A stretch of DNA of 64,000 bases from Thermococcus sp. 18S1 (GTDB taxonomy: Archaea > Methanobacteriota_B > Thermococci > Thermococcales > Thermococcaceae), in contig NZ_SNUU01000001.1 of the NCBI RefSeq assembly GCF_012027645.1, forward strand, positions 1,426,001 to 1,490,000. The letters are read 5' to 3'. Both the position numbers and the translations under genes were made by a program. Below, one piece after another: positions 6,611 to 20,288 of the stretch (position 1 is its first letter; each line of letters begins with the position of its first letter). The notes beneath the pieces were generated by a model that worked only from the letters and a program-made list of their open reading frames with translations, ran no database searches and was not told the DNA's origin.

Positions 6611-8469
6611 TGTACGGCTACCAGAACAAAATAGCAAGGGTGAACCTGACTGCTGGAAAGGTCACCTACGAGGAACTGCCCGACGAGGTGATTGGGAAGT
6701 TCGTGGGCGGAAAGGGCCTCGGCTACTACCTGATTTACAGGGAAGTGCCACCGGGAACCGACCCACTCAGCCCGGCCAACAAGTTCGTCTTCGCGCCAGG
6801 TGGATTAACCGGCCTGATTCCGGGTTCGAGCAAGGTCATAGCGGTCAGCAAGAGCCCGGAGACGGGGCTAATCAGCGACTCCAGCGGTGGAGACGCCTTC
6901 GGTCCGAAGCTCAAGGGGCACTTCGATGCTATAATCATCGAAGGTAAAGCAGAGGAGCCCGTCTACCTCTACGTCCATGATGGAGAGGTGGAAATCAGAG
7001 AGGCAAAGCACCTTTGGGGTAGGGGCAACTACGAGGTCGCCAGGGAACTCTGGAAGGAGCACCCGAAGGCCAGCATGGCAATGATTGGTCCCGCCGGCGA
7101 GAGGCTCAGCAGGATTGCCAACGTGATCTACGACACCGAGCGCGCGAGCGGAAGGGGCGGTCTTGGAGCCGTCCTCGGAAGCAAGAAGGTCAAAGCGGTG
7201 GTCGTTGAGCCCGGAGAGAAGCCCAAAGTTGCCAACCCCGAGGAGTTCCAGAAGCTCTGGCAGGAGTTCTACGAGCACTTCGCAACGGATCCGAAGTACG
7301 AGCACACAAGGAACTACGGGACGAGCGACGCGCTGAGAAGCTCAGCTTCCCTCGGCATGAGCCCCGCTTACAACTTCTCAAGACCCCACATCCCCGACGA
7401 GCTCGCGAGCAAACTGGCCGGAGACGAGGTCAAGAAGTACGAGGTAACCCCTGAGTGGTTCGTCCACGGCAAGAGCTGTCCGATTAAGTGCGCTCGCTAC
7501 GTAGAGGTCGAGTACAAGGGCAGGAAAATCCGCGTCAAGCCCGAGTACGAGAGTATAGCAATGCTCGGAGCCGCGACCGGAGTGTTCAACTTCCCGGCAG
7601 TTGCCTATTTCAACTGGCTCGTCAACGACCTCGGACTGGACAGCATAGCGACGGGAGCAACGATAGGCTGGGTCTTCGAGATGGTCGAGAGGGGTCTGCT
7701 CACCGAGGAGGAGATAGGCTTCCCTGTCAAGGGCTTCGGCGATGAGGAGGCCGAGGAGAGGCTCATAAAGCTCATGGCTGAGAGGAAGGGCTTTGGGGCG
7801 ATAATAGCGGACGGTGTGAAGAGGGCCTGTGAAAGGCTCGGCAGGGGCTGCGAGTTCGCGGTGCACGTGAAGGGCATGGAGAGCCCGGCCTGGGACCCGC
7901 GCGGAAGGAGGACCTACGCCCTCAGCTACGCAACGGCCGACGTTGGAGCCTCTCACCTCCGCGGCTGGCCGAGACCACACCAGCTGCCCAACCAGGGGGC
8001 TGCTAAGGAACTTGTTCCGTCGATGATAGAGGGCAGGGACGAGAGCTACATTACCGACATGCTCGGAACGTGCAAGTTCGTTTCCTACAAGATGGAGGAC
8101 TTGGCTAAGTTCTACTCGCTGGCAACGGGGGAGGAGTGGACGGTCGAGAGGCTGAGGAAGGTTGCCTGGGCCGTCGAGAGCATAGTCAGAATCCACGACG
8201 CTCTGGACTGGGTTACACCGCCGCTCGACGACACCATTCCGCCGCGCTGGTGGGAGCCGGAGCAGGACGGACCTGCTAAGGGCAACGCGGCCTTCATAGA
8301 CTACGACGACTTCCTTGAGGCGAGGAAGGAGTTCTACAGGCTTAGGGGCTGGCACGAGGAGCTCGGCGTTCCGTTGCCGGAGACGATGGAGGAACTCGGC
8401 TACCCGGAGTTCAAGGATGATGCGGAGAGGGCTTTGGAGGTCGTGAAGAAGAGGATGAACCTGGAGTGA
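6610..8469 (+). CDS. Tungsten aldehyde ferredoxin oxidoreductase family protein, WOR4-like
   Basis: 619 residues, full length for the AOR/FOR family. The N-terminal pterin-binding domain has GGKGLGYYL, FAPGGLTGL and SGRGGLGAVLGSKKVKAV. These enzymes oxidise aldehydes to acids with ferredoxin as acceptor. AOR binds its cluster with C-x2-C-x3-C plus a distant Cys; here the motif reads GKSCPIKC, so C290, C294 and C488 are kept but the first ligand is replaced by Gly287. I recall that P. furiosus WOR4 carries a 3Fe-4S cluster, which would fit. ATG 6610 follows GGGGGTGCGTCTG and overlaps the adhD stop. The substrate cannot be read from sequence. Confidence 0.88.
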   Translation: MYGYQNKIARVNLTAGKVTYEELPDEVIGKFVGGKGLGYYLIYREVPPGTDPLSPANKFVFAPGGLTGLIPGSSKVIAVSKSPETGLISDSSGGDAFGPKLKGHFDAIIIEGKAEEPVYLYVHDGEVEIREAKHLWGRGNYEVARELWKEHPKASMAMIGPAGERLSRIANVIYDTERASGRGGLGAVLGSKKVKAVVVEPGEKPKVANPEEFQKLWQEFYEHFATDPKYEHTRNYGTSDALRSSASLGMSPAYNFSRPHIPDELASKLAGDEVKKYEVTPEWFVHGKSCPIKCARYVEVEYKGRKIRVKPEYESIAMLGAATGVFNFPAVAYFNWLVNDLGLDSIATGATIGWVFEMVERGLLTEEEIGFPVKGFGDEEAEERLIKLMAERKGFGAIIADGVKRACERLGRGCEFAVHVKGMESPAWDPRGRRTYALSYATADVGASHLRGWPRPHQLPNQGAAKELVPSMIEGRDESYITDMLGTCKFVSYKMEDLAKFYSLATGEEWTVERLRKVAWAVESIVRIHDALDWVTPPLDDTIPPRWWEPEQDGPAKGNAAFIDYDDFLEARKEFYRLRGWHEELGVPLPETMEELGYPEFKDDAERALEVVKKRMNLE

Positions 8470-8486
8470 GGCTTTTCTCACCATAT

Positions 8487-8801
8487 TTATTTTGTGCTCA
8501 TAAATCCGAGCCAGAGGGGGAGCAGATCAAAGGCAAAACTAAGGGAGAAGAACACAATAGCCGGCCTTTTGAGACCGCTTCGCCCTTTGAGGACAACTAG
8601 CGGCATCAAAGCGAGGACCGTAAACAACAGCGACGCCATGTCGATCACGAGAAATGGTGTCACTTTGGAAGGTAAGTGCCTGTCAATACCGAGTGTGTCA
8701 GTGACTGCCGAACTCCAGTAGAGCAGGAAAAGGGAAGCGAGGAGGAGAAACATCCCGTAGAGGACCGCGATGGTGGTATCTCTGGCCTTTACGCGCTTCA
8801 C
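8487..8801 (-). CDS. Small membrane protein coupled to the exported protein upstream
   Basis: 104 residues with three membrane helices (about 8-28, 45-68 and 78-98) and a basic KVKARD start. The start is GTG 8801, overlapping the stop of the preceding gene (GTGA), so it is translated by coupling. A longer in-frame reading would extend about 40 codons into the upstream gene with atypical codons and is rejected. No family recognised. Confidence 0.65.
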   Translation of the reverse strand: MKRVKARDTTIAVLYGMFLLLASLFLLYWSSAVTDTLGIDRHLPSKVTPFLVIDMASLLFTVLALMPLVVLKGRSGLKRPAIVFFSLSFAFDLLPLWLGFMSTK

Positions 8802-9754
8802 CCCGTTGAGTTGGCAACGTAGGTGAACTCCCCGTTGCAGTACCTGCCTTCCCCTGTGTAGAGGCCGAAAACCGCACAGCCTTTCTCGTCGATCCTGCCC
8901 CAGCCTGGAATAACGTGGCAAAGGCAGGTCGGGTCGTTCATTTGGAAGGAGCGCCGGAATAAGACTTCGGTCCCGTTTAGGATCATGACGTAGCCCGACC
9001 GGGGCGAACCGTCAAGCTGGGGTTTCTCAAACCCCATCAGCACGTAGCTGCCATTGGAGACAAGGAAAGTGTTCCTGATTGGAACGGTACTCCCGCCGAG
9101 GTCGAACTTCTCAACAGTTCCGTTTTCTCCAATGATGTAAAAATAATCGTTTGGTGCGTACGTCCTGAAATCCTGGACGTCTGAAGAAGAGGTCTGATAT
9201 GCAAGGAGATAGAGGTAGCCGTTTGCTTGAGTGAAGAGAAGCTCCGGATATGCTGTTCCATTAGTGACCCTGTTTCTTCTTGCATCGCTGTAACTCCAGA
9301 GGTATGGGTCGAATTCCATGATCCAGAGCTGTTTTCCATCGTAGGTGCATCCCGTAAGAACCTTTACACTGACATCGGATGTAACGCTGCGAACACTCAT
9401 GTTTACAACGCTGTTGGCATCGATCTGATACAAAACAATGGGTACGGTTCTCTTCGTGGTCGTGTTCCGAACTACAATGAACCCCCAATCAAAGAAGAAG
9501 GCTTTGCTCGCGTTGATGAGGTATGCTGAGTTCCCACGCTTAATGATGTATCCGTTGGTGGTATTGTAAACTTCAGAACCGTCGGGGTTCTTAAAGAGCA
9601 GATGCCCTTCCAGTGAACTGGAGTATGGTATGAAGCATCCTGAGGACACCACGTTTTCAGGCGTGTTGGTTGGGGTTGAGCCCCTCAGAGCGACCAACGA
9701 CCCCACGAGAATTCCCACTGCAATAATCAGAAGGACGGTTCCCCTGCGTGACAT
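8798..9754 (-). CDS. Exported or membrane-anchored protein of unknown function
   Basis: 318 residues. The N-terminal hydrophobic helix (TVLLIIAVGILVGSLVAL) is a signal anchor. The rest is rich in Asn, Thr, Tyr and Ser with many N-x-S/T sites and repeated beta-strand patterns (YLLAYQ, YFYIIGENG, YVMILNG), suggesting an extracellular beta-propeller-like or beta-sandwich domain. Base composition is more AT-rich than the neighbours, hinting at faster evolution or transfer. Start ATG 9754 follows GGGGGGTG. It forms a two-gene unit with the membrane protein downstream. Confidence 0.7.
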   Translation of the reverse strand: MSRRGTVLLIIAVGILVGSLVALRGSTPTNTPENVVSSGCFIPYSSSLEGHLLFKNPDGSEVYNTTNGYIIKRGNSAYLINASKAFFFDWGFIVVRNTTTKRTVPIVLYQIDANSVVNMSVRSVTSDVSVKVLTGCTYDGKQLWIMEFDPYLWSYSDARRNRVTNGTAYPELLFTQANGYLYLLAYQTSSSDVQDFRTYAPNDYFYIIGENGTVEKFDLGGSTVPIRNTFLVSNGSYVLMGFEKPQLDGSPRSGYVMILNGTEVLFRRSFQMNDPTCLCHVIPGWGRIDEKGCAVFGLYTGEGRYCNGEFTYVANSTG

Positions 9755-9870
9755 TAAACACCCCCCAACCATCGGCAGGAATCAAAATAAAATATGCCCT
9801 TTAGGTTATAACTTTTTCTACTCCTAAGACGAAAGTGGAGGTGATAGATTGAAGAAGAAACAAACCAAAC

Positions 9871-10596
9871 TCATCCCTTCAAAAACGCCTCGATGAGGTT
9901 CCTCGTCTCGTTGAAGGCCTCGAGCGGAACTCCCTTCGGGAGGCCGCCTATTTCTCCATTCACGTCCTTGAGGACTCCCTCTCCAGCACCGAGGAACATT
10001 CCCTCACTGACGATTCCGCGGAAGTTGGCCGGCGGGAGCAGGGCAACGGCAACGCGGTTTCCTTCCTTCACCGTCAGGTCGTTGGTGACGACGGTTATCG
10101 CCCTGTCGCCAAGGTTAACGTTGGTGACGAGAAGCCTGTCGGCGTTCGGGTGCTTGCCGACGCTCATGACCTCGCCGACCTTTATATCAACTGCTATGAC
10201 CGGGTCGTTTATCTTCCCGAGGGAGAGGCGTCTCTCGAGGCCGAGGATTGTGTTCAGGAAGAACCTGACCTTGGCCACCTGCTCCTCGACCTTCTCGCGC
10301 TCGCTCTTATCCGCCAGGCTGATGAACTTGTGGTGCCAGTCCTCTCCTCCAAGGGCCTCGATTATGCCGCTGGCCTTCTCCTTCAGGGCCTTCATCTGCG
10401 GGGTCTCAATCAGCTCCTTCGGCTCCACGTAGCTGTACCTCATCGCCTGTATCTCCGGAATCATCTCCTTCGCCAGCTGAATCGCTCCCTTCTTGTTCCA
10501 CTTCCCCTTGAACTTCGCGTGCTCCACCGTCTTCAGGAACAGCTCCACCGCCTTCTCCGCCACCAGTAAGCGGTAATCCTTGCTCGTGTCCCACAT
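9871..10596 (-). CDS. tRNA-binding domain protein
   Basis: 241 residues. The N-terminal half is helical and basic; the C-terminal half (about 125-215) is an OB-fold tRNA-binding domain of the CsaA/Trbp111/MetRS-C family: [68 protein letters not shown]. Such domains bind tRNA structure and often assist aminoacyl-tRNA synthetases. Start ATG 10596 follows GGTGAGAATT. The start lies inside the 3' end of the upstream gene, which reads on for 190 nt in another frame. Confidence 0.85.
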
Positions 10597-11638
10597 AATT
10601 CTCACCCTCCAGTGCCTCTAAAACGCGGTTCTTAACGCTTTCGTCCCTTATCCCCTCGGCTATCGAACGGGCCCTGGCTTTATCGCCCCAGCGGGCATGG
10701 GCCAGAGCCACCTCTCCGAGGAGCTCCGACGCCATCTTATCGTCCCTGATAACCCCTGCCAGAATCAGCGGCTCATCCAGGAAGCCTATGCGGAGGAAGC
10801 GCCTAGCTATCCCCTCCAGCTCCCTGTCGGTCGGTCTGAACTTGCCCACGAAGATTATCTCGAGGGCGTCGTCGAAGACCCTCCTTCCGAGCCTCGGCTG
10901 CTCGTGGAGGTAGAGCCAGTAGGCCAGCTCGAGCATGGTTATAGCCCTTCCTTCCAGTGGGAGGAAGCGCATCATTGAAATCGCGGGCTCGATATCCCCC
11001 TTTTCGAGGAGCTCCTCCACCGCCGCTTTGCCCCTCTTCAGGACGTCCCTTATCAGCTCCATCTTGTCTTCAATGTACTTTGCCTGGAGCTTGAAGAATA
11101 TCGAGGCGTAAACGTCCCTGGCCAGTTCGTAGAAGTCGATGGCCATCTCGTTTGGTATCTCATCGGCGCTCTTCTCGATCAATCTGGCGACCTTTATGAG
11201 CGACGACGTTGCCGCTGATGAGAGCCCCCGAGAGGCCTGTAGGAGCTCGACGGCCTCTCTGAAAAGCTCCAGTCCGTCCTTATAACGGTCCGAGAGAACG
11301 AGGTTCCTTCCTATTCCTGCCAGCACCTCCCCCCTAACCCTCGGGGAGTCTACCCTTCCGGCGATGTCTATGGCGTTTTCAAAGTAAGCCTCGGCGTCCC
11401 TGTCCCTGTCGAGTGTGTAGAGAGCCCTGCCGAGGATTGAATACGCCAAAGCTTTCTCCGGCGTTCCCCTTACGGATTCGAGCGTTTCCAGCATGTGGCT
11501 TAAAACCTCGTCCCGCGGGAAGGCCGTCAGGACTTCACTGAGGGCCACCAGCCGTCGTATCTCATCCTCCACTGCCAGCGCGTTTTTTAATGCGTTTTTA
11601 TAGTCCCCTTTTGATAGGTAAAGCTCCACGGCCTCCAC
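10406..11638 (-). CDS. Helical repeat (TPR-like) protein with anomalous C-terminus
   Basis: 410 residues as read. The first 340 or so consist of TPR-like paired helices ([58 protein letters not shown]). The last 66 residues are Gly/Glu/Asp-rich and look like the out-of-frame translation of the downstream gene. One extra G in the GGAGGGTGAG run at 10601-10610 would give a TGA there, so a frameshift or sequence error is possible. Start GTG 11638 follows GGTGGTTCTC. A shorter relative is at 24082. Probably a protein-protein interaction scaffold. Confidence 0.7.
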
Positions 11639-11688
11639 GAGAACCACCAACCGCTAGAAATAGGGGACGAAAGTAAAAAAGGCTATCG

Positions 11689-12015
11689 CTAACCCTTGAC
11701 CTTCCTATCCCAGTTCTCAAGCATAGTGTCGAGCGCCAGAAGGCTGTTGAGCCTGAGGCGGACCTTCCGGTTCTCCCAGTCTATTGAGCCCTTGAACTCT
11801 TTGAGAAGCTCAAACACCTTCTCGGTCTCCTTCGCCGGAAGGTTCCTCCCGTAGAACTCCTCGCCGCAGTGGGGGCACTTGAAGACGAAGCCTTCAAAGG
11901 CCTCTATGAACTTTTCGCGGTCCTGGAAAATCTCACTAGCATTTTCGAGGGTGAGCATCTGCTCTATAAGTTCCGCCCAGTCAAGGGAACTGCCGCAGAG
12001 CGGGCACTTCGCCAT
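11689..12015 (-). CDS. Two-CxxC zinc-ribbon protein
   Basis: 108 residues. Two zinc knuckles, CPLCG at the N-terminus (C4, C7) and CPHCG in the middle (about C48, C51), probably bind one zinc. The rest is helical. The family is unrecognised. ATG 12015 follows GGAGGTCGATTGAA, which overlaps the stop of the DHH gene, so it is co-transcribed with the prefoldin/DUF3194/DHH genes. Confidence 0.75.
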   Translation of the reverse strand: MAKCPLCGSSLDWAELIEQMLTLENASEIFQDREKFIEAFEGFVFKCPHCGEEFYGRNLPAKETEKVFELLKEFKGSIDWENRKVRLRLNSLLALDTMLENWDRKVKG

Positions 12016-12016
12016 T

Positions 12017-13000
12017 TCAATCGACCTCCCTCAAAAACCTCTCAATCTCCTTCAGGATGAGCCTTATCGCTTCGTCAAGGTTCTTCCTTCCGTTCGCCCC
12101 GGCGGCTCCAGCGTGGCCGCCGCCCGAGCCGTCTATGACCGGCCCGACCTTTTCCATAATCTTGCCGAGGTGCAGGCCCTTCTTCACGAGGTTTTCTTTT
12201 GCCCTCGCTGAAATACGGACGCCCTTTTTCTCGCTTCCCACAACCGCTATGTCAGCGCCGAGGTTCAGGAACGTCTTGCAGGCGAGGGACTCGTAGGCAG
12301 AAACCTTGGAGACCGCTATGATGTACTTCCTGAACTTCCTTATCTCCATCCTCTGGCAGGCCTTGAGGATGGCAGTGCGCTTCGCCTGGTCTATGTTCTC
12401 GTCGCTGACAGGGGCCACGAGCTGGAATATCTCCCCCATCTGAATTGGAAAGCGCTCCAGCATCTCACTTACGGCCTTGAATGTCTTCGAGTTCGCAAAG
12501 CGGAAGTTCGCCGTATCGGTAACTATTCCAGCTAGGAGAGCCTTAACGGCTTTCTCGTCGTAGAAGTCGAGGTATTTGAAAAGCTCCCAGACTATCTCGG
12601 CCGTTGAGGTGCGCGATGAATCGACAACGACTATATCGGCTCTGATGGGCTTTTCCTTCTCGGCATGGTGGTCGATGACGATAACGGTCTTACCGCGCGG
12701 AATCTCGATTGGTTCGAGCTGTTCGAGGGAAGAGGTGTCGAAGATTACAACCACGTCTTCCCTAACAGGGGGGTCCTTTTCGAGCGGAACGGGTGAGAGG
12801 GTGAGCAGTCTCTTGGCGTAGGAGGAGACGCTCTGGGCGACACCGATTCTCACGTTTTCAACGCCGATTGATTTGAGGTAGAGAGCGAAGGCTATCGCCG
12901 AGCCGAGGGAATCTGGGTCGGCGTTGTGGTGGCAGAGGAGAAGGAAAGATTTGCCCTGTGAGCGCTGAAGGAAGCGTTTAAGCCTTATTTTTCCCCTCAT
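12017..13000 (-). CDS. DHH/DHHA1 family phosphoesterase
   Basis: 327 residues. The DHH domain shows LLCHHNADPDSLGSAIA (metal ligands), VIFDTSS, and VIDHHAEKEKP, which is the DHH motif itself. The C-terminal DHHA1 domain ends with IDGSGGGHAGAAGA, the substrate-binding GGGH loop. Members cleave phosphodiesters in oligonucleotides (nanoRNase, RecJ-like) or cyclic dinucleotides; which applies here is not evident. ATG 13000 is preceded by GAGGGAGA and overlaps the upstream DUF3194 gene by 23 nt. Its place after prefoldin beta and DUF3194 is typical of archaea. Confidence 0.88.
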   Translation of the reverse strand: MRGKIRLKRFLQRSQGKSFLLLCHHNADPDSLGSAIAFALYLKSIGVENVRIGVAQSVSSYAKRLLTLSPVPLEKDPPVREDVVVIFDTSSLEQLEPIEIPRGKTVIVIDHHAEKEKPIRADIVVVDSSRTSTAEIVWELFKYLDFYDEKAVKALLAGIVTDTANFRFANSKTFKAVSEMLERFPIQMGEIFQLVAPVSDENIDQAKRTAILKACQRMEIRKFRKYIIAVSKVSAYESLACKTFLNLGADIAVVGSEKKGVRISARAKENLVKKGLHLGKIMEKVGPVIDGSGGGHAGAAGANGRKNLDEAIRLILKEIERFLREVD

Positions 13001-13310
13001 TAGCAATCTCCCTCAGCTTTCTCTCAACGGCCGCGTAGGCCTTCTCGACGGCCTCATCTATTAGCCCCTCAACGTCCACCTTCACGAAGATTGGAACCTC
13101 CAGGTAGACCTCAACCTCAAGGTCGAGGGTCTCATCGCGGTTTATCCTCATCGTAACCTCTATATCCTTGACGTCGCTCCTGTTGAGGACGTCGAAGACG
13201 TGCTTGATTATCGTCTCCTGCGCAAGCTCGCCAACCTCAATGAGCTGCTCCTCGCTCAGCTCCGGCAGACCGATGTGGATAACCCTTCTCCCGCTGGCTC
13301 CCTCGTCCAT
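12978..13310 (-). CDS. DUF3194 family protein
   Basis: 110 residues, predicted alpha/beta: LSEEQLIEVGELAQETIIKHVFDVL helix, then paired strands IEVTMRINRDETLDLEVEVYLEVPIFVKVDV, then a C-terminal helix AYAAVERKLREI. The sequence and its position between prefoldin beta and a DHH phosphoesterase match the archaeal DUF3194 family. Role unknown. Start ATG 13310 after GGGGGTGTAGCG. Confidence 0.75.
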   Translation of the reverse strand: MDEGASGRRVIHIGLPELSEEQLIEVGELAQETIIKHVFDVLNRSDVKDIEVTMRINRDETLDLEVEVYLEVPIFVKVDVEGLIDEAVEKAYAAVERKLREIANEGKNKA

Positions 13311-13339
13311 CGCTACACCCCCAAATGAAAGAGAAGAGG

Positions 13340-13690
13340 TCAGCCCGCGGTGGGCCTTATGGCGGACTGTATCTTCGCGGTGAGCTCCTTGAGCTTCTCG
13401 TTGAGCTTCTTCTCCTGCCTCTCGAGGGCGCTGATGCGGACCTCGAGGGTCTCGACCTTCTCCTTCAGCTCCTCGACGGCCTTGGCCTTGTCCGTCTTGA
13501 CGATGAGCGTTCCGACGGTCTTGTAGATAACCGTTCCGTCCTCGACCTTCTCGAGCTCTTCCAGAGCCTTCTTTGCCTCGGTGAGCTCGAGCTGAACCTT
13601 CTGCTTCTGCTGGATGACGAGCTGGAGCTGCTGCTGGTAGCTCTCAAGTTGCCCAAGCATGGCCTGAACCTGGGGCGGAATGTTCTGCAT
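13340..13690 (-). CDS. pfdB: Prefoldin subunit beta
   Basis: 116 residues. Two long coiled-coil arms (IPPQVQAMLGQLESYQQQLQLVIQQKQKVQLELTEA and VEELKEKVETLEVRISALERQEKKLNEKLKELT) flank a beta-hairpin core, VEDGTVIYKTVGTLIVK, diagnostic of beta-class prefoldin. With alpha subunits it forms a hexamer that holds unfolded proteins for the thermosome. Start ATG 13690 after GGAGGTGTGCCTC. Confidence 0.97.
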   Translation of the reverse strand: MQNIPPQVQAMLGQLESYQQQLQLVIQQKQKVQLELTEAKKALEELEKVEDGTVIYKTVGTLIVKTDKAKAVEELKEKVETLEVRISALERQEKKLNEKLKELTAKIQSAIRPTAG

Positions 13691-13768
13691 GAGGCACACC
13701 TCCGTAATCGTAATGCCGGGTTAGAATAAGGGGTGGGCTTTAAATAGTTTCGGCTAAAGAAAAGGGGA

Positions 13769-14314
13769 TCAGAAGGCAAAGTCGTGCTTTTCCCCCAACC
13801 GATATCCAAATTTTTGATAATAAAGTCTGATATTTCTTCTAGTGAATGCCAACATTTTGTCAGCTGCCTCTTCGATATCAAGTTTTCTTAAATCCACCAT
13901 GGTTATTACTCTATTCTCGGGACGTGTCCAAAGCTTAAATGTTTCCATTAGTACCCACTGGGTTCCATTGGTTAATACCCCCAATGCCACGCCCTCTTCA
14001 AAGCAATATCCAATCAACTGACGAGCGTGTTTGGATACTACTCCCCCTCTTCCAATAACGCGGGTTTTTGCACTTTTTGCTTCCAAGAATGCCACAGGTT
14101 TTCCATCCACGAGAAGAGTGTAATCTGGCCGTCTCTTATTTCTAGTTTGTCTTTCTGGATATACCTCATGTGGCTTGTCAATTCTCCATCCCAGCTCTTT
14201 AAGAAGGGGAAGTATCATGTGTTGCTTCGTAGCTTCCTCGTTGGAAATCCTTGGGTATATCTCTATGATAGCTTCAATCTTTTCCTCTAAGGGTGAGGAA
14301 AACAACCCCGGCAT
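13769..14314 (-). CDS. Orphan restriction-type nuclease domain protein (HSDR_N, PD-(D/E)xK)
   Basis: 181 residues. It matches the N-terminal nuclease domain of type I restriction HsdR subunits: an EEATKQHMILPLLKELGW segment, RPDYTLLVDGKPVAFLEAKSAK with catalytic D and E-x-K, then ARQLIGYCFEEGVALGVLTNGTQWVL. There is no helicase domain and no methylase or specificity subunit nearby. The gene is visibly richer in A/T than both flanks, has its own TATA box, and sits inside the otherwise conserved Pcc1-prefoldin segment, which suggests acquisition. ATG 14314 follows GGTGAGCTC; an ATG at 14326 is an alternative. Confidence 0.8.
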   Translation of the reverse strand: MPGLFSSPLEEKIEAIIEIYPRISNEEATKQHMILPLLKELGWRIDKPHEVYPERQTRNKRRPDYTLLVDGKPVAFLEAKSAKTRVIGRGGVVSKHARQLIGYCFEEGVALGVLTNGTQWVLMETFKLWTRPENRVITMVDLRKLDIEEAADKMLAFTRRNIRLYYQKFGYRLGEKHDFAF

Positions 14315-14350
14315 GAGCTCACCCATAATGGAACTACCCGGTTAAGTATT
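14315..14350 (-). promoter_or_regulatory. Promoter of the orphan nuclease gene
   Basis: On the minus strand a very AT-rich AATATTTATAATACTTAA box lies at about 14337-14352, roughly 25 nt before the expected start of transcription, followed by GGTGAGCTC and the ATG. The gene therefore does not depend on the upstream Brix/Pcc1 unit. Confidence 0.5.
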
Positions 14351-14361
14351 ATAAATATTTC

Positions 14362-14631
14362 TTAGATTTCAATCGAGTCCATAGCAACCTTAATCCATCT
14401 CAGATAGGAGTTCAGAGTTCCCCTCAGGGCGGAGTTGTCCCGGGCAAGGAAGCGGATTATCACCCTGTTCCCCTCGCGGAGGAACTCTATCCTGCTCCTC
14501 CGATAAGGCACGCTCTCGTGCTCGTACAGAACACTTTCGTAAACTATTCTCGCGGTCTCCTCATCGGGAAAGGAGAGCTCGATCACTCCTTCGATGGGCC
14601 ACGCTTCAGAATCGCTTCCTTGTAGTCCCAT
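14362..14631 (-). CDS. pcc1: KEOPS complex subunit Pcc1
   Basis: 89 residues. The conserved CTAG/Pcc1 core is present: IELSFPDEETARIVYESVLYEH, the SVPYRRSRIEF strand, and SALRGTLNSYLRWIKVAMDSI. Pcc1 is the dimerisation subunit of KEOPS, which makes t6A at position 37 of tRNAs reading ANN codons. Start is uncertain: ATG 14631 keeps the first beta strand and has GGAGG 10 nt upstream but overlaps the Brix gene by 49 nt; GTG 14586 overlaps the Brix stop (GTGA) but would remove part of the strand. Confidence 0.88.
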   Translation of the reverse strand: MGLQGSDSEAWPIEGVIELSFPDEETARIVYESVLYEHESVPYRRSRIEFLREGNRVIIRFLARDNSALRGTLNSYLRWIKVAMDSIEI

Positions 14632-15215
14632 CTCCGCCCGTCCTCCATTATCCATATCTTGACGCTTATGAGAGGGCCAACGGCCTTCTCCTTATTGACG
14701 TCCAGGCGGTAGAAGTTCACCGCCATTCCGCGCGGGTGCCTCTCGATTACGCTCAGAACGTCGGTATTGTACCTATCGGCTATCCCAAGGAGCGAGCGCT
14801 CCCTTCTCGGAACGAACTTTCCGCCAGTCAGCTCGGCGAAAACCTGGGCGAATGCAACGTGGTCGAGGCCGACGCGCTTTGCGGTGGTAACGACGAGCGG
14901 CATCTCCTCGCGTATGGGCCTTATGTCTCTAAAACCGATCTCGCGCTGGAGCTTTATACCGTGGAGGTACAGGTAGCCGAGGTATCCCCAGTCCTCGGGG
15001 TCAACCTTGATGAAGGTCATTTTGAGCGGGTTGCCCTTCCAGACGTTGACTATCAGGAGTCTCTCGTAGTTCCTGTCGTAGGCCTCCATGAGAAGGTCCT
15101 GGATGGTCTTCTTTCCCCTGGTCAGGTAGAGCGAGTTAGGGAAGACCTTCTCTAGGTCGTGGCCGAAGCTCCTCGTCCTCCTCGTGGGTCTGTGGGAAGT
15201 CGTTATCAGCATCAT
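14583..15215 (-). CDS. Brix domain ribosome-biogenesis protein (archaeal Imp4-like)
   Basis: 210 residues. It begins MLITTSHRPTRRTRSFGHDLEKVFPNSLYLTRGKK, characteristic of the Brix/Imp4 superfamily, with a later DHVAFAQVFAELTGGKFV segment. Archaeal members are small and act in rRNA processing and subunit assembly. ATG 15215 follows GTGAGGGCT. It lies downstream of RpoP and L37Ae and overlaps Pcc1, matching the conserved archaeal order. Confidence 0.9.
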   Translation of the reverse strand: MMLITTSHRPTRRTRSFGHDLEKVFPNSLYLTRGKKTIQDLLMEAYDRNYERLLIVNVWKGNPLKMTFIKVDPEDWGYLGYLYLHGIKLQREIGFRDIRPIREEMPLVVTTAKRVGLDHVAFAQVFAELTGGKFVPRRERSLLGIADRYNTDVLSVIERHPRGMAVNFYRLDVNKEKAVGPLISVKIWIMEDGRRWDYKEAILKRGPSKE

Positions 15216-15267
15216 AGCCCTCACTCAAAATTCGTTTAAGCGATAAAAGGCTTTCGAAACGAAAGAA

Positions 15268-15417
15268 TCAGATCGCCTTTACGCGCCTGGCCACCCTGGG
15301 CCTGGGCTTGTAGAGTATCTTGCTGCCGCAGTAGGGACAGCGGACTTCCCTGGTGTTTTCGAGGTCGAGCTCGACCTCCTTTCCGCACTTTGCGCAGCGG
15401 TAAACGGCCATTACCAT
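15268..15417 (-). CDS. rpoP: DNA-directed RNA polymerase subunit P
   Basis: 49 residues, starting MVMAVYRCAKCGKEV and ending in KPRPRVARRVKAI, with a zinc ribbon made of YRCAKCG and RCPYCGSKIL (four Cys). RpoP is the archaeal counterpart of eukaryotic Rpb12 in the polymerase core. Start ATG 15417 after GGTGATAACC; an ATG two codons later is also possible. It follows L37Ae by 33 nt in one operon. Confidence 0.95.
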   Translation of the reverse strand: MVMAVYRCAKCGKEVELDLENTREVRCPYCGSKILYKPRPRVARRVKAI

Positions 15418-15450
15418 GGTTATCACCCTAAACTAAGCAAAGGAAAGGGG

Positions 15451-15711
15451 TCAGGCCTTGGAGGCCGTGACACGCTTGGCGACCTTTCCGGCCGGAGTGG
15501 TCGGCAGGTAGGCACCGCCGGCGAAGGTGGCGCCGCACTTCTGGCACTGCCATATGCCGGTGCTTATCCTCCTGACGGCCTTCCTTCCGCAGACCGGGCA
15601 GACGTGTTTCTGCTTCATCTTGGCCTCAACGGCGGCCACTCTTCTCCTGATCTTGAGACCGTACCTGGGACCGTACCTTCCAGCTGAACCAACCTTAGTA
15701 GTCCTTCCCAT
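15451..15711 (-). CDS. rpl37ae: 50S ribosomal protein L37Ae
   Basis: 86 residues. The N-terminus [24 protein letters not shown] and the zinc finger [31 protein letters not shown] are diagnostic (four Cys). It binds 23S rRNA. Start ATG 15711 after GGGGTGATGCTC. It heads the leftward operon L37Ae-RpoP-Brix-Pcc1. Confidence 0.97.
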
Positions 15712-15786
15712 GAGCATCACCCCTAATTACCAACGGTTTTCACGACTGGAGAGTGTTTCCGGAGACGTTTTATAAACCTTTGCCTG

Positions 15787-15809
15787 GAAACTTTGCTCCG
15801 CAAAGTTTC
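15787..15809. repeat. Hairpin A1: 10-bp stem, 3-nt loop
   Basis: Arms GAAACTTTGC and GCAAAGTTTC flank the loop TCC. It is followed by ATCAAAGTTCGCG. The stem is the same as in the copy at 16175 except that the outer pair is G-C here and C-G there. Confidence 0.75.
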
Positions 15810-15876
15810 ATCAAAGTTCGCGGTTCCTTTAAACCCGCCGGTTGATGGAAGATTCCCTTATAAAATTTATTCTGAT

Positions 15877-15899
15877 TGAAGCTTTTGGATAAAGCTTCA
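15877..15899. repeat. Hairpin A2: 9-bp stem, 5-nt loop
   Basis: Arms TGAAGCTTT and AAAGCTTCA flank TGGAT. It is followed by CCAAAGTTTG, like the other A hairpins. Compared with A1, the fourth base pair of the GAAACTTT arm is G-C instead of A-T, a compensatory change. Confidence 0.7.
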
Positions 15900-16016
15900 C
15901 CAAAGTTTGTAGCTCTTTACACAAAAGCTCGAATGAGGAGGATTTTTACCAACAAACACTCACTTTTGAGAAGAGAACACGTTTGGTGATCCTCTACAAA
16001 CCGGTTTACTCCATTC

Positions 16017-16035
16017 TGACGCCCTTTGGGCGTCA
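16017..16035. repeat. Hairpin B1: 8-bp stem, 3-nt loop
   Basis: Arms TGACGCCC and GGGCGTCA flank TTT. It is related to the hairpin at 16313 through two paired substitutions that keep the stem perfect. Confidence 0.75.
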
Positions 16036-16174
16036 ATTCCAAAGTTAAACCCTACTCAAAGAGCAATTTGAAAAGTTTTCATAACTTAAAACGGCCATTC
16101 GATAAGAAAAATCATCAGAATTTTTAGCCCTTGAAAAGGAGCTACCAACCTTGATCAAACTTCGCGCAGGCGAA

Positions 16175-16197
16175 CAAACTTTGCAAAGCAAAGTTTG
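16175..16197. repeat. Hairpin A3: 10-bp stem, 3-nt loop
   Basis: Arms CAAACTTTGC and GCAAAGTTTG flank AAA. It is followed by ACCAAAGGACACC and preceded at 16154 by GATCAAACTTCGCG, which matches the sequence after hairpin A1 at 12 of 13 positions. Confidence 0.75.
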
Positions 16198-16312
16198 ACC
16201 AAAGGACACCCTTCTCACCAACAGACGAAAGGTCAGTCGTGCACTTGTGAATTGGGCAATTTCAGAGCGAGTTTAACATTAAACAAGGCTTTGAAGTAGT
16301 TTCAGCTATTTT

Positions 16313-16331
16313 TGGCGTCCGAAGGACGCCA
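16313..16331. repeat. Hairpin B2: 8-bp stem, 3-nt loop
   Basis: Arms TGGCGTCC and GGACGCCA flank GAA. Relative to B1, an A-T pair has become G-C and a C-G pair has become T-A, while every other stem pair is unchanged. Confidence 0.75.
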
Positions 16332-16447
16332 TTTGGAAAGTGAAACACTCTCCAAAAAGCGAGTTAAAAAGAAACTCTCCATACAGTTGTCAAATTTTGT
16401 AAAATGCACCTAAACTTCCGCCAGCGCTTGCGAAGCAAGGGCTGTGA

Positions 16448-16473
16448 GGGGGCCATTGGAGATGTCGGCCCCC
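16448..16473. repeat. GC-rich inverted repeat upstream of the gene at 16574
   Basis: GGGGGCC (16448-16454) and GGCCCCC (16467-16473) can form a 7-bp stem with a 12-nt loop. A smaller stem, CTTGC-GAA-GCAAG, lies just before it at 16427-16439. Role unknown; both lie before the TATA box of the next gene. Confidence 0.55.
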
Positions 16474-16573
16474 TGGGGGTCCCGACGTCATCGCAACCCA
16501 ATACTCGTCGGGCAGTCATTTCTATGCACAAAACCTTATAACAGTTGGGCCAACTCACCCATAGGTGCAGAAC

Positions 16574-17074
16574 ATGGCCGGAACGATAAGCAAGATAATA
16601 CACTTCCGCGACGAAGAGGAGTTCCTCGACGACATGACCGAGATAATGGAGCGCTTCTCATATCTAGCCAGCAAATACGGCCACAATCCCGTTGAAGGCG
16701 TTCTCCTGTGGGACTATATAGGCGTCCAGGACGAAGAGGGTGTCAAAATTTTCCGCGTGGGCGAGTTCCCCTACTTTGAGGGGGCCCTGAAGGTTGACCT
16801 TGAGACTTTGCGCGTTATGGAGCGCTACTTCGACGAGATGGAGAGCAAGTGGGACGAGCTCCGCGTAGAGGACATCGCCTACTTCGTGGAGATGCTCAAC
16901 GACGCCCTGGGCAGGGAAATCGTCTACTACGAAGCCTACGACCTCGGCCTTGACAGGAACACCGCTTACATAATCATTAACATCGCGAACCTTCACTATC
17001 TGGAAAGTGTTCTCGATGGGCGGGACAGGGAGATATTCGAGGAAGCCGTTGAGATGCTGATGAGATATATCTAA
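16574..17074 (+). CDS. Conserved-looking acidic protein of unknown function
   Basis: 166 residues, acidic and mostly helical (DEEEFLDDMTEIMERFSYLASKYG, LETLRVMERYFDEMESKWDEL), with a central beta segment (GVLLWDYIGVQDEEGVKIFRVGEFPYFEGALKVDL). There is no signal peptide or known motif. ATG 16574 follows GGTGCAGAAC and a TATA box at about 16530. It could be a Thermococcales-specific family; function not inferred. Confidence 0.7.
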   Translation: MAGTISKIIHFRDEEEFLDDMTEIMERFSYLASKYGHNPVEGVLLWDYIGVQDEEGVKIFRVGEFPYFEGALKVDLETLRVMERYFDEMESKWDELRVEDIAYFVEMLNDALGREIVYYEAYDLGLDRNTAYIIINIANLHYLESVLDGRDREIFEEAVEMLMRYI

Positions 17075-17127
17075 TTATGTAATCATTGAATCGCATGATT
17101 GTTTAGTTAAAGCTGGAGGTGGTGGTC

Positions 17128-17388
17128 GTGCTCTTCAAGAAGAGGGGAACCTTCACCGAGGAGGACGCTAGAAAGGTCATCGAGATCGTGAGCGAGAGGC
17201 CCGACGAGAGGGAGATAATCATCATGGCGGAGAAGGTTACGGAAGAAGCAAAGAGGCGCCTCTGGGACTACGCCAGGGGAGTTCAGCTTATGGCCGACAT
17301 GACCGGCGAGGACAGAAGTGTAAGGGTCGAGATTCTCGAGGGCTACGTGAGCGAACACGTGAAGGGCGTTGATGTGGATGAGCTGTGA
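17128..17388 (+). CDS. Small unknown protein upstream of queE
   Basis: 86 residues: LFKKRGTFTEEDARKVIEIVSERPDEREIIIMAEKVTEEAKRRLWDYARGVQ is helix-strand-helix, followed by a strand SVRVEILEGYVSEHV. No family recognised. GTG 17128 follows GGAGGTGGT; GTG codons at 17119 and 17122 overlap that site. It ends 9 nt before queE and is probably co-transcribed. Confidence 0.65.
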   Translation: MLFKKRGTFTEEDARKVIEIVSERPDEREIIIMAEKVTEEAKRRLWDYARGVQLMADMTGEDRSVRVEILEGYVSEHVKGVDVDEL

Positions 17389-17397
17389 GGTGTTGGC

Positions 17398-18159
17398 ATG
17401 AGACTCGTGATGGCCGAGGTCTTCAACAGCTGGCAGGGAGAGGGAGGAAGCGTCGAGGGTTCTGCCTTTGGTAGGAGGCAGATTTTCGTCCGCTTCGCCG
17501 GCTGCGACCTTAACTGCCTCTGGTGCGACTCCAGGGAGTACATCAGGGCTTCCCAGGTTTCACGCTGGCGCTATGAGGTGGAGCCCTTCACAGGGAAGTT
17601 CGAGTACAGACCTAATCCAGCAGAGCTCGGCGATGTCGTTGATGCCGTTCTGCGCCTTGATACCGGGGATGTTCACTCGATAAGCTACACCGGCGGCGAG
17701 CCGACGCTCCAGGTAGAACCGCTCAAAGCCCTTATGGGAGAGATGAAGAGCCTCGGCTTCGACAACTTCCTTGAAACCCACGGCGGTTTGCCGGAGCTAA
17801 TTGAAGAGGTCGCCACTCTCACAGATTACGCGAGCGTTGACATAAAGGACGAGACGGCTAAGGCCACTGAGGACTGGAGGGCCTTAGTTCTCCGCGAGGT
17901 AGAGAGCATAAGGATTCTGAAGGAAGCGGGGGCAAAAGTTTACGCCAAGCTCGTCGTTACGTCGGAGACGAAAATCGAGAACGTCCGCTGGTACGCGGAG
18001 CTACTGAAGGGCCTAGCTCCACTCGTAATCCAGCCGAGGGAGCCGATCGAGATAAGCCAGGAGAGGCTCATGGAGCTCTATCGCGAGGCGGCTCTGATCA
18101 TGGGTCGGGAGAACGTCGGGCTGAGCTTTCAGGTTCATAAGTACCTTCACGTGCTTTGA
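17398..18159 (+). CDS. queE: 7-carboxy-7-deazaguanine synthase, radical SAM
   Basis: 253 residues. The N-terminus VFNSWQGEGGSVEGSAFGRRQIFVRFAGCDLNCLWCDS contains the C-x3-C-x2-C cluster motif (C36, C40, C43) and the substrate pocket typical of QueE. SYTGGEPTLQ is the radical SAM GGE motif. QueE makes the 7-deazaguanine precursor that archaea use for archaeosine in tRNA. ATG 17398 after GAGGTGTTGGC. Confidence 0.92.
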   Translation: MRLVMAEVFNSWQGEGGSVEGSAFGRRQIFVRFAGCDLNCLWCDSREYIRASQVSRWRYEVEPFTGKFEYRPNPAELGDVVDAVLRLDTGDVHSISYTGGEPTLQVEPLKALMGEMKSLGFDNFLETHGGLPELIEEVATLTDYASVDIKDETAKATEDWRALVLREVESIRILKEAGAKVYAKLVVTSETKIENVRWYAELLKGLAPLVIQPREPIEISQERLMELYREAALIMGRENVGLSFQVHKYLHVL

Positions 18160-18190
18160 GAGGGTTTTTAAGGGCCCGTCATAACTTTTT

Positions 18191-18251
18191 CCGGCGATGA
18201 TGACATTGGCCTTTGGGGTGAACGATGCCCGGGATCGACGGCCTGAGCCGT
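18191..18251 (+). ncRNA. Probable C/D box small RNA
   Basis: The gap after queE holds ATGATGA (C box, 18197-18203) and CTGA (D box, 18243-18246), spanning 50 nt, the usual archaeal size. CGGC before the C box pairs with GCCG after the D box, giving a terminal stem. A TATA-like GTTTTTAAG at 18164-18172 would start transcription close to 18194, and a pyrimidine/T-rich stretch follows. The internal C'/D' boxes are poor (TGAACGA near 18219), which lowers confidence. The stretch before the D box, GGGATCGACGGC, would be the guide; its methylation target was not identified. Confidence 0.5.
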
Positions 18252-18315
18252 GCCGTCAAATTTTTAAATCTCTCTTCTTTTAGTAACCCTCGGAAAGATT
18301 AAGGGGGGTGGTGTC
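18252..18315 (+). promoter_or_regulatory. Promoter and leader of the TIP49-like gene
   Basis: AAATTTTTAAATC at 18258-18270 is a TATA element; TCTCTTCTTTT after it may also terminate the small RNA. GGGGGGTGGTGTC gives the ribosome-binding site before ATG 18316. Confidence 0.5.
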
Positions 18316-19641
18316 ATGCCAGTGATAGAGGAAGTGACCGCACCGAGGAGCTTCGAGAGGATTGGAAGCCACTCCCACATAAGGGGCCTCGGTCTCGACG
18401 AGAGCGGGAAGGCGAAGTTCATGGCCGACGGAATGGTTGGGCAGGTTAAGGCTAGGGAAGCGGCTGGAATAGCTGTTGAGCTCATCAAGCGCGGCAAGCT
18501 CGCCGGAAAGGGAATACTTCTCGTTGGCCCGACGGGAAGCGGTAAGACGGCCATAGCAATGGGCATAGCAAGGGAACTCGGTGAGGACGTGCCCTTCGTC
18601 CAGATAGCGGGAAGCGAGATTTATTCCGCCGAGGTCAAGAAGACCGAGTTCCTGAAGGAGGCCCTGAGGAGGGCCATAGGAGTGAGGATAAGCGAGGAGA
18701 GGAAGGTCTACGAGGGCGAGGTCAGGGAGATAAGGATAAACCGCACCAGGCACCCGTTCAACCCCTACGTCGAGATTCCCGAGAGCGTCGTCATAACCCT
18801 CCGCACCAAGGACGATGAGAAGACCATCAGGGCAGGCAGGGAGATAGCCTATCAGCTCATGGAGATGGGCGTTGAGGAGGGCGACGTCATACAGATTGAC
18901 GCCGAAACCGGCAGAATTTCGAAGATAGGAACCACGAAGGAGGAAGAGGGACTGTTCTTCAAGCGCAAGGTGAACCTGCCGAGCGGCCCGGTTCTCAAGA
19001 TAAAGGAGTTCACCTACACCGTCACGCTCCACGACCTCGACGTTGCCAACGCCCGCGGCAACATCTTCGGCCTGCTCTTCAGCACCGGGGCGGAGATAAG
19101 CGACGAGATAAGGCAGCGCGTTGATGAGACCGTCAAAAAGTGGATCGAGGAAGGGAAGGCCAGCCTCGTGCCGGGAGTTCTCTTCATAGACGAGGTCCAC
19201 ATGCTCGACATTGAGGCGTTCTCCTTCCTCGCGAGAGCGATGGAGAGCGAGCTGGCACCGATTCTTATCCTCGCGACGAACCGCGGAAGGACGAAGATAA
19301 GGGGCACCGACCTCGAAGCCCCGCACGGGATACCCATCGACATGCTCGACAGGCTGCTCATAATCAACACCGAGCCATACAAGAAGGAGGAAATCAGGGA
19401 GATAGTCAAGATAAGGGCGAAGGAGGAGAAGATCGAAGTCAGTGAGGAGGCGATAGAGTACCTCGCGGAGCTCGGAGAGAAGACCAGCCTCCGCTACGCG
19501 GTGCAGCTCCTCGCCCCGGCCAGCGTCCTGGCAAAGGGCGGAAGGGTGGAGAAGGAGCACATCGAGAGGGCAAAGGAGTACTTCGCGGACCTCAGGAGGA
19601 GCATGGAGTTCGTGGAGAAGCTGGAGGGCATGCTTCAGTAA
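18316..19641 (+). CDS. TIP49/RuvBL-like AAA+ ATPase
   Basis: 441 residues. The N-terminus HSHIRGLGLDESGKAKFMADGMVGQVKAREAAGI is the signature of eukaryotic RuvBL1/2 (TIP49). Walker A GPTGSGKTA is at 71-79, followed by a roughly 110-residue insertion (domain II, OB-like), then Walker B LFIDEVHMLD, the sensor LATNRG and a C-terminal AAA lid with SLRYAVQLL. Eukaryotic homologues form hexamers in chromatin remodelling and snoRNP/PIKK assembly; archaeal roles are undefined. It is interesting that a probable C/D box RNA lies immediately upstream. Start ATG 18316. Confidence 0.92.
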   Translation: MPVIEEVTAPRSFERIGSHSHIRGLGLDESGKAKFMADGMVGQVKAREAAGIAVELIKRGKLAGKGILLVGPTGSGKTAIAMGIARELGEDVPFVQIAGSEIYSAEVKKTEFLKEALRRAIGVRISEERKVYEGEVREIRINRTRHPFNPYVEIPESVVITLRTKDDEKTIRAGREIAYQLMEMGVEEGDVIQIDAETGRISKIGTTKEEEGLFFKRKVNLPSGPVLKIKEFTYTVTLHDLDVANARGNIFGLLFSTGAEISDEIRQRVDETVKKWIEEGKASLVPGVLFIDEVHMLDIEAFSFLARAMESELAPILILATNRGRTKIRGTDLEAPHGIPIDMLDRLLIINTEPYKKEEIREIVKIRAKEEKIEVSEEAIEYLAELGEKTSLRYAVQLLAPASVLAKGGRVEKEHIERAKEYFADLRRSMEFVEKLEGMLQ

Positions 19642-19682
19642 AACTTTTAAACTTTAATCTTTTAACTTTTCCTGGTGATAAT

Positions 19683-20288
19683 GTGTCGCCGAAGTTTCGG
19701 GGGAAAAGGCTCTTCGTTTTCCCTGTGGTTCTGGCTCTTTTGGGATTCCTCCCCTATGGTGGGCCCTCCTTAACCTACGTCCAGCTCAACGGAACTTTCT
19801 CCGGGGGTATCGTTGTTCCCGTGGAAATTTCCGATGAGGTTGTGGATTACCTCTCCGGTTTCAACGCCACCCTCTACTCGTTCGAGGCAAGGGTCCTCGG
19901 AGACGATATGAACGCCAGCATAATCCTCTCCGCCCTGAGGCTTTCCCCACCGCACGAACCGGAGGACTTCGAGGTTATCGTAAACGCCCGCCCGATAAAA
20001 GGGGCCACCTACGTCCCCTACGCCGAGAGAATACCTGTTTGTATACGGTACCACGGCCACGACTACAGGGCGTTCTTGACCGTAAAGGCCAGGGATGAGG
20101 TGAAGGCTTCCGGAAGCTGGAGCCGGGGTTACCTCGACGGCGCTTCCAACTCCACCCTGCTGGAAGTGGGCGACCTGAAACTGGTCGTCAGGGTCGAAGA
20201 GCCGGGACACTACTTCTTCTCCATCGTGACTGCCTGGAAAAATGTTGAGGTGAATAGTGGGGGGCTTATACTGGGGGTGGGGGAGTGA
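19683..20288 (+). CDS. Exported or membrane-anchored beta-rich protein, unknown
   Basis: 201 residues. A basic N-terminus (SPKFRGKR) leads to one hydrophobic helix, then a mostly beta domain with several N-x-S/T sites and a second hydrophobic strand-like segment near the end. No family recognised. GTG 19683 lies after GGTGAT. The stop overlaps the GTG start of the next gene (GTGA), so they form a pair. Confidence 0.65.
   Translation: MSPKFRGKRLFVFPVVLALLGFLPYGGPSLTYVQLNGTFSGGIVVPVEISDEVVDYLSGFNATLYSFEARVLGDDMNASIILSALRLSPPHEPEDFEVIVNARPIKGATYVPYAERIPVCIRYHGHDYRAFLTVKARDEVKASGSWSRGYLDGASNSTLLEVGDLKLVVRVEEPGHYFFSIVTAWKNVEVNSGGLILGVGE

Follow-up and report, generated by a model that had tools for sequence, protein, structure and literature searches.

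Between the genes for Pcc1 and prefoldin beta, the window (the whole 64,000-nucleotide stretch of Thermococcus DNA analyzed here) carries an insert that encodes, in the reading to which we give a probability of about 60%, an active DNA nuclease of the PD-(D/E)xK group, made of a single domain and of the type I/IIG restriction kind, which would be one of several alternative cassettes occupying the place between pcc1 and the prefoldin-beta promoter. What can be read directly from the DNA comprises the nuclease domain, its intact catalytic residues, the constraint on the protein, a patchy presence among genomes, alternative cargo at the same place and edges that are legible to the base in two pairs of genomes. 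The nuclease thereby belongs to a known family, and the passenger spot that it occupies is of a generally known kind as well.

The Nuclease Gene and Its Protein

The locus comprises the following features.

12978..13310, minus strand: DUF3194 gene (Pfam), whose junction to prefoldin is uninterrupted in 54/54 genomes
13340..13690, minus strand: prefoldin beta gene (Pfam PF01920), right flank of the insert
13697..13729, minus strand: prefoldin-beta leader, where homology resumes between genomes with different cargo
13738..13747, minus strand: CTATTTAAAG, TATA-like, preceding prefoldin beta at the right edge of the insert
13769..14314, minus strand: nuclease ORF, a 181-aa single-domain HSDR_N PD-(D/E)xK protein with D64, E78, K80 and Q99-x3-Y103
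14348..14355, minus strand: TTTATAAT, TATA-like, read directly 34-41 nt ahead of the nuclease start
14362 to about 14386, minus strand: putative exchanged tail of pcc1, its last 13-25 nt, from the two pairs with a readable edge
14362..14655, minus strand: Pcc1 gene (Pfam PF09341), left flank of the insert
14583..15224, minus strand: Brix-domain gene, overlapping Pcc1, named from the initial sequence reading

The open reading frame of the original prediction was recovered at 13769-14314, and its strand is minus. An alternative in-frame ATG at 14326, upstream of this start, would lengthen the protein by 4 residues, but the 181-residue form is the likelier one because GGTGA, read directly, stands 6 nt ahead of the ATG at 14314. 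The protein matches the Pfam family HSDR_N at 3.4e-16 and 60.1 bits (cut-off 25.1); an NCBIfam scan gave no match, and sequence searches returned no convincing relative of solved structure. The D and E-x-K motifs had been described as intact, and the PD-(D/E)xK residues indeed align throughout, D64, E78 and K80 being the same in 48/48 homologues, while N25-E26-E27, Q99 and Y103 are unchanged in the whole of a 12-sequence alignment. No helicase or translocase domain follows the nuclease domain, since the protein ends at 181 aa and matches only HSDR_N families in Pfam.

The predicted AT-richness was also borne out: the gene has the lowest GC (0.431), the lowest GC3 (0.416) and the largest codon-usage distance (0.419, for a mean of 0.186) among 72 window ORFs, a set called mechanically at 100 aa or more, in which the nuclease ORF was counted from 14326 and the codon-usage background was that of the window ORFs rather than of the whole genome. 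Against its nearest relative, the copy of genome G049 (record JAMOTW; a second entry, L032, is the same contig and was counted once), omega is 0.087 over 181 codons. The protein is therefore maintained, and this codon comparison indicates that the gene is under purifying selection. The TTTATAAT-like element recurs in G049 (L038) and, less clearly, in the copy of G042.

Predicted Fold and Likeness to Known Enzymes

A structure model computed from nine sequences reached a mean pLDDT of 70.3 (42-48 for the other four models) and a pTM of 0.71, values that are moderate. Its best fold matches were DrdV (7lvv; Z 10.3, 130 aligned residues, rmsd 3.2), BpuSI (3s1s; Z 9.6, 143 aligned, rmsd 3.6) and the HsdR of Vibrio vulnificus (3h1t; Z 9.5 over 131 residues). 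The match to the HsdR of EcoR124I (2w00; Z 7.3 over 131 residues) is indistinguishable from background, because unrelated mitoribosomal chains reach Z 7.0-7.5, and Foldseek matches were weak (best E 0.011). The protein is thus predicted to have a restriction-endonuclease fold, by a model of moderate quality against which unrelated chains score up to Z 7.5. The sole PADLOC match was REase_MTase_IIG, at 1.5e-4.

With the R subunits of type I systems (EcoR124I, Vibrio vulnificus HsdR), the window nuclease has in common the Pfam family, the D/E-x-K and Q-x3-Y motifs and the fold, but it has no helicase domain, no HsdM was found in its genome and it is only 181 aa long. We therefore rejected a role as the R subunit of a type I system, since the helicase part is absent and HsdM was not found in the window genome with the one methylase family searched (PF02384). 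The type IIG/IIL enzymes DrdV and BpuSI provide through their nuclease domain the best fold match; compared with them, the window protein has neither a fused methylase nor a target-recognition domain.

A Variable Junction in a Conserved Gene String

Pfam confirmed Pcc1 (PF09341), prefoldin (PF01920), DUF3194 and DHH as neighbors, and the nuclease does separate Pcc1 from prefoldin as had been proposed; for L37Ae, RpoP and Brix, the names are those of the initial sequence reading. Pcc1 and prefoldin beta were readable together in 54 Thermococcus genomes. Among the 61 of the genus, G036, G039 and G041 gave no Pcc1 hit, and G044, G037, G055 and G030 were left out for having no prefoldin hit on the fetched stretch. 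The junction has a gap below 100 nt, with nothing there, in 22/54 genomes and one of 123-229 nt with no gene in three others; four contain the short nuclease, with one copy frameshifted, and the remaining 25 contain other cargo, of 496 nt or more. These surveyed lengths run to codon 6 of prefoldin beta (query start 13675) and are each 15 nt too long, so that empty junctions really measure about 62-76 nt; the window insert measures 671 nt. A comparison across Thermococcus had been suggested for deciding whether the gene is universal at this place, and with 4/54 genomes it is not. The other cargo falls into at least five kinds, sorted by eye with Pfam run on nine example proteins.

Rce1-like protease: 3 genomes (Pfam on one)
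Phosphate-transport and PhoU genes: 5 genomes (Pfam on three proteins)
Secreted protein of ~366 aa: 5 genomes (one at a contig end outside the 54, one with the phosphate genes)
Small membrane protein: 11 genomes (some behind another small gene)
Coiled-coil pair: 3 genomes (by eye)

The membrane, secreted and coiled-coil examples matched no Pfam family at 1e-5, and no nuclease showed up in the scan of the nine proteins. As controls, the prefoldin-DUF3194 junction spans at most 44 nt in 54/54 genomes and Brix and Pcc1 overlap in 48/52; separately, in G043, G038 and G008 (L079, L080, L090) the Brix and Pcc1 genes are by estimate 1.1 kb apart. Outside Thermococcus, Pcc1 and prefoldin are adjacent with an empty junction in 19/20 genomes of two other genera (13/13 and 6/7). 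The same holds in 1/8 genomes of a third genus, whose other seven show no Pcc1 within 1.5 kb upstream; there the genes may be ordered differently, or a long insert may be present. The empty junction is probably the ancestral state. Judging from these sequences, the place between pcc1 and prefoldin looks like a variable, recurrently used exchange spot in Thermococcus, with the nuclease as one of several interchangeable passengers. The claim of an insertion into a conserved gene string thus stands, but its framing as a lone accident was too narrow for a spot that holds at least five kinds of other cargo.

A TATA-like element of the CTATTTAAA or TTCTTAAA type was seen by eye ahead of prefoldin beta in 54/54 genomes, whether the junction was empty or occupied, and an insertion here need not therefore break an operon. 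The insert looks to be located at the boundary between two transcription units. Judged by eye, most genomes share a similar prefoldin leader after the TATA, the exceptions being G034, G040 and G051. No Rfam match was found in 10000-19000, and an RNA element at the nuclease locus was discarded on this ground.

The spot resembles cDHS1 of Pseudomonas aeruginosa, for which variable cargo between two conserved genes is described (PMC10250203). The differences are that the cargo here consists of single small genes or one operon, mostly not recognizable as defense, and that the edges extend into the coding end of pcc1. Since the other cargo is not recognizably of the defense type, the spot itself gives no support for a defense role of the nuclease. 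Among the matches listed by our literature search, outside which most of the subscription literature lies, we recognized no paper dealing with the pcc1-prefoldin spot or with HSDR_N proteins that stand alone in Thermococcus.

Edges and History of the Cassette

How the cargo changes can be followed by comparing flanks. Between G025 and G002, which carry different cargo, identity in 40-nt bins on the pcc1 side is 70% in the last bin and 90-100% further up; on the prefoldin side it is 50% in the bin just before and 95-100% after. Their differences concentrate in the final 25 nt of pcc1; the pcc1 tail of G025 matches those of G022 and G019, which carry the same cargo as G025. The nuclease-bearing G029 compared with the cargo-less G017 gives 80% then 90-100% going up and 52% then 85-100% going down (40-nt bins), and its pcc1 tail departs from that of G027 over roughly the final 13 nt only. 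For the window genome (G000) versus G019, the 60-nt bins read 80% then 90-100% up and 65% then 87-98% down; versus the empty G028, the drop at the flank is less sharp (77, 87, 87, 97). Identity thus falls off sharply at the same edges in G025/G002, G029/G017 and G000/G019. In two pairs whose backbones are almost identical, the genomes diverge only in the cargo, the TATA region of prefoldin and the final 13-25 nt of pcc1, which points to replacement of the cassette via its flanks. We suggest that incoming DNA recombines homologously through the conserved flanks and that the cassettes would be swapped in this way with no recombinase of their own; exchange through conserved flanks has been proposed for defense hotspots flanked by core genes such as cDHS1 (PMC10250203). 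The spot is of general interest as an example of a place at which passengers of one gene join a string of archaeal core genes with no obvious break and with edges readable to about 20 nt, which helps in finding further exchange spots and new defense genes in archaea.

A more elaborate version would make the junction a dock for gene swapping, to which passengers bring their own last codons of pcc1 and sometimes their own prefoldin TATA, so that the tail of Pcc1, a KEOPS subunit, and the expression of prefoldin would follow the cargo, and where the nuclease would cut DNA bearing a different passenger and thereby promote the swap; we regard it as most improbable.

Three other origins of the insert or of its edges were considered. 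An integrated plasmid or virus remnant, or an element driven by an integrase, was rejected, since no tRNA is present in 8000-20000, no repeat pair linking both ends of the insert was found and the insert has no separate second ORF of at least 45 aa that does not overlap the nuclease. A pcc1 remnant at the right edge was dismissed as well: by eye, two of the four nuclease inserts, those of G000 and G042, have TTTAG ahead of the prefoldin TATA, and in the others it is no general feature. Finally, the nuclease could itself be a homing-like intergenic element which would cleave pcc1-prefoldin junctions that lack a cassette and be copied into them as they are repaired, thereby arriving at the same place in separate lineages. 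The single junction shared by four host lineages, the solitary gene and a fold match to the bacterial homing enzyme I-Ssp6803I (Z 5.0) are compatible with homing, but the spot evidently needs no nuclease, other cargo being present in 25/54 genomes with none among the nine proteins scanned; moreover, the long relatives of the nuclease are located elsewhere, and the insert of G029, whose pcc1 side departs from that of its sister over those 13 nt only, shows no long co-converted tract. Homing is in our opinion very improbable.

Replacement of the cassette through its flanks can also be set against the histories of the hosts. By RLI, the window genome is closer to G029 (93% identity) than to G042 (83%), yet the nuclease of G029 is the more distant one (59% versus 78%), so that the histories of nuclease and hosts disagree. 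In a tree of the four flank proteins beside the spot, the four nuclease hosts stand in four places (4 changes are required for 4 tips, and 15 for the empty state), and G029 groups with G017, G027 and G014 (98), which are all empty. This tree of 54 tips is weak, with 17/51 branches open, and its tips differ from the 54 genomes of the junction survey: it leaves out rows with at least 45% gaps and includes G044, G037 and G055, scored as not empty. For the pair formed by the window genome and G049, dS is 1.11 in the nuclease and 3-5 times lower in the flanks (0.24-0.34); flank and cargo therefore have not moved together recently in this pair, and either the cassette predates the similarity of the flanks or its synonymous sites evolve faster.

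Relatives of the Nuclease in Thermococcales

An HSDR_N-type match exists in 55/61 Thermococcus genomes and in 84/94 genomes of Thermococcales, or 72/74 when only those of good quality are counted. The short gene occurs in only four Thermococcus genomes, in each of which it separates Pcc1 from prefoldin. These are the window genome, G049 (81% identity to the window copy), G042 (78% over residues 1-121) and G029 (59% over 8-168). A frameshift interrupts the copy of G042 (L069) at about codon 120, in a run of G, by decay or assembly error. In the genus, the HSDR_N protein is mostly a ~295-aa paralogue encoded near the ABCE1/RLI gene, as judged by comparing hit positions by hand: the two lie at most 10 kb apart in 44 of the 53 Thermococcus genomes having both (in one case across the origin), on separate contigs in five and hundreds of kilobases apart in four. 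The paralogue of the window genome itself (L093:7279-8157, C1 about 1752683) has 292 aa, an identity of 37% to the nuclease and an intact D/E-x-K.

Nearest to the short clade are long HSDR_N proteins of Thermococcus (G006, G008, G027, G039, G016 and G004), with 43-49% identity to the window nuclease over the nuclease domain. They number about 335-345 residues (for G008 a 409-aa ORF was called, with a start that may be placed too far upstream) and differ from it by ~150 extra C-terminal residues, a part with no Pfam family in the examples scanned, and in some cases by neighbors such as DUF365, EVE, a PLD-SNF2 helicase or an Eco57I-type methylase. In the family tree, the short clade (SH-aLRT 99) nests with the long forms (98) and apart from the core clade; this tree has 48 rows, after dropping ten duplicate or fragment rows, and comes from a short search with SH-aLRT only and with long branches flagged. 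We propose that the nuclease derives from these longer, partly defense-associated relatives and would have lost the C-terminal ~150 residues.

Within about 15 kb of the long forms of G006 and G008 are genes for a PLD-SNF2 helicase, an Eco57I-type methylase and an EVE protein, the helicase of G006 being the PADLOC HKD+Snf2 match (3.5e-58). The long form of G039 adjoins an EVE gene and a NOV_C/helicase-like protein, those of G027 and G006 are directly behind DUF365 and that of G004 has a DUF365-like gene nearby (by sequence likeness); around that of G016, neither DUF365 nor the EVE/helicase/methylase set was seen. An archaeal operon of methylase, DUF499, SWI2-SNF2 helicase-nuclease and EVE genes is described in PMC7641849, and two of the long relatives likewise have nearby an EVE gene, a large methylase and a SNF2 helicase that includes a PLD domain. 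In contrast to that operon, the window nuclease has none of these neighbors, and its genome has no EVE match. As side observations, the long gene of G006 is broken into two reading frames (L094:7842-8549 and 8540-8857), and the Thermococcus barophilus plasmid pTBMP1 encodes a long HSDR_N protein (L137:5923-6954) in a run with genes annotated as NYN-domain, ribonuclease J, glutamine amidotransferase and ADP-ribosylglycohydrolase. All relatives in phage and plasmid records are below 60% identity. A virus-collection scan with the single protein gave no relative, and one with an alignment gave 8 contigs at 38-41% over residues 23-120 with ORFs of 405-431 aa, which are too distant to be the source of the window nuclease.

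The main rival to a defense-derived nuclease is a role as a housekeeping enzyme, the short protein processing DNA in repair or recombination as its ~295-aa paralogue would, with no part in defense, and being present at the spot incidentally. The near-universal HSDR_N match, its frequent proximity to ABCE1/RLI, the D and E-x-K retained by the paralogues and the Holliday-junction resolvases that appear among the weaker fold matches would all suit such a role. The short form is, however, patchy and AT-rich, with a history at odds with that of its hosts, and its place in the family tree is with the long forms and not with the core clade, for which reasons we consider the housekeeping role unlikely. 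In the likelier reading, that of a defense-derived nuclease, the enzyme would be expressed from a promoter of its own and would cut DNA that is foreign or damaged.

Partner Genes and the Protection of Host DNA

No methylase adjoins the window nuclease. Its genome gives a single N6_Mtase (PF02384) match, which is weak (30 bits) and corresponds to a THUMP/UPF0020 protein of the RNA-methylase type, so that the predicted absence of a partner is supported for the window genome by the one methylase family searched, N6_Mtase (PF02384). PF02384 matches are weak (26.7-30.4 bits) in three of the four short-nuclease genomes, and among these that of the window genome is the only one identified. G042, alone among the four hosts, has a strong N6_Mtase match (388 bits) on another contig, in addition to a weak one, and its nuclease may have its partner methylase there. 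This strong match (L201, contig 27) happens to lie ~12 kb from the core HSDR_N paralogue of G042.

The methylase-less nuclease had been presented as a paradox of this locus. The lack of a methylase holds for the window genome by the one family searched, but the puzzle is not special to this gene, because nearly all good Thermococcales genomes have an HSDR_N-type match; in Thermococcales, it is usual for an HSDR_N gene to come with no methylase, and the window locus is no oddity in this. A nearly universal protein of this kind bears on how restriction-type nucleases spare their own genome, and the core HSDR_N paralogue and the sharp-edged spot are the interesting features. For the defense-derived nuclease, we suggest that host DNA would be spared by the choice of substrate (structure, ends or modification), with no cognate methylase, and that the enzyme would act alone or with a further partner.

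A reader of modified bases (EVE or DUF365) was found neither in or beside the window nuclease nor in its genome, and no EVE or DUF365 match was found in any of the four short-nuclease genomes, G049 being only 73% complete. This absence, like the ~150 residues present in the long relatives and the frameshift of the G042 copy, would fit a neutral leftover of a decaying restriction system that had lost its C-terminal part and its partners. Decay is hardly reconciled, though, with an omega of 0.087 at a dS above 1 between the window and G049 genes, with catalytic residues that are all kept and with the TATA-like element kept in G049, and we find it improbable.

Two minor observations concern the gene string around the insert. 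Upstream of the L37Ae-like gene, an AT-rich stretch (15721-16564) has a GC content down to 0.41, with no convincing ORF or Rfam match. In G049, a nucleotidyltransferase/HEPN-like pair lies further down the same string, directly before DHH (L092:9836-10535), which by its look we presume to be a toxin-antitoxin couple.
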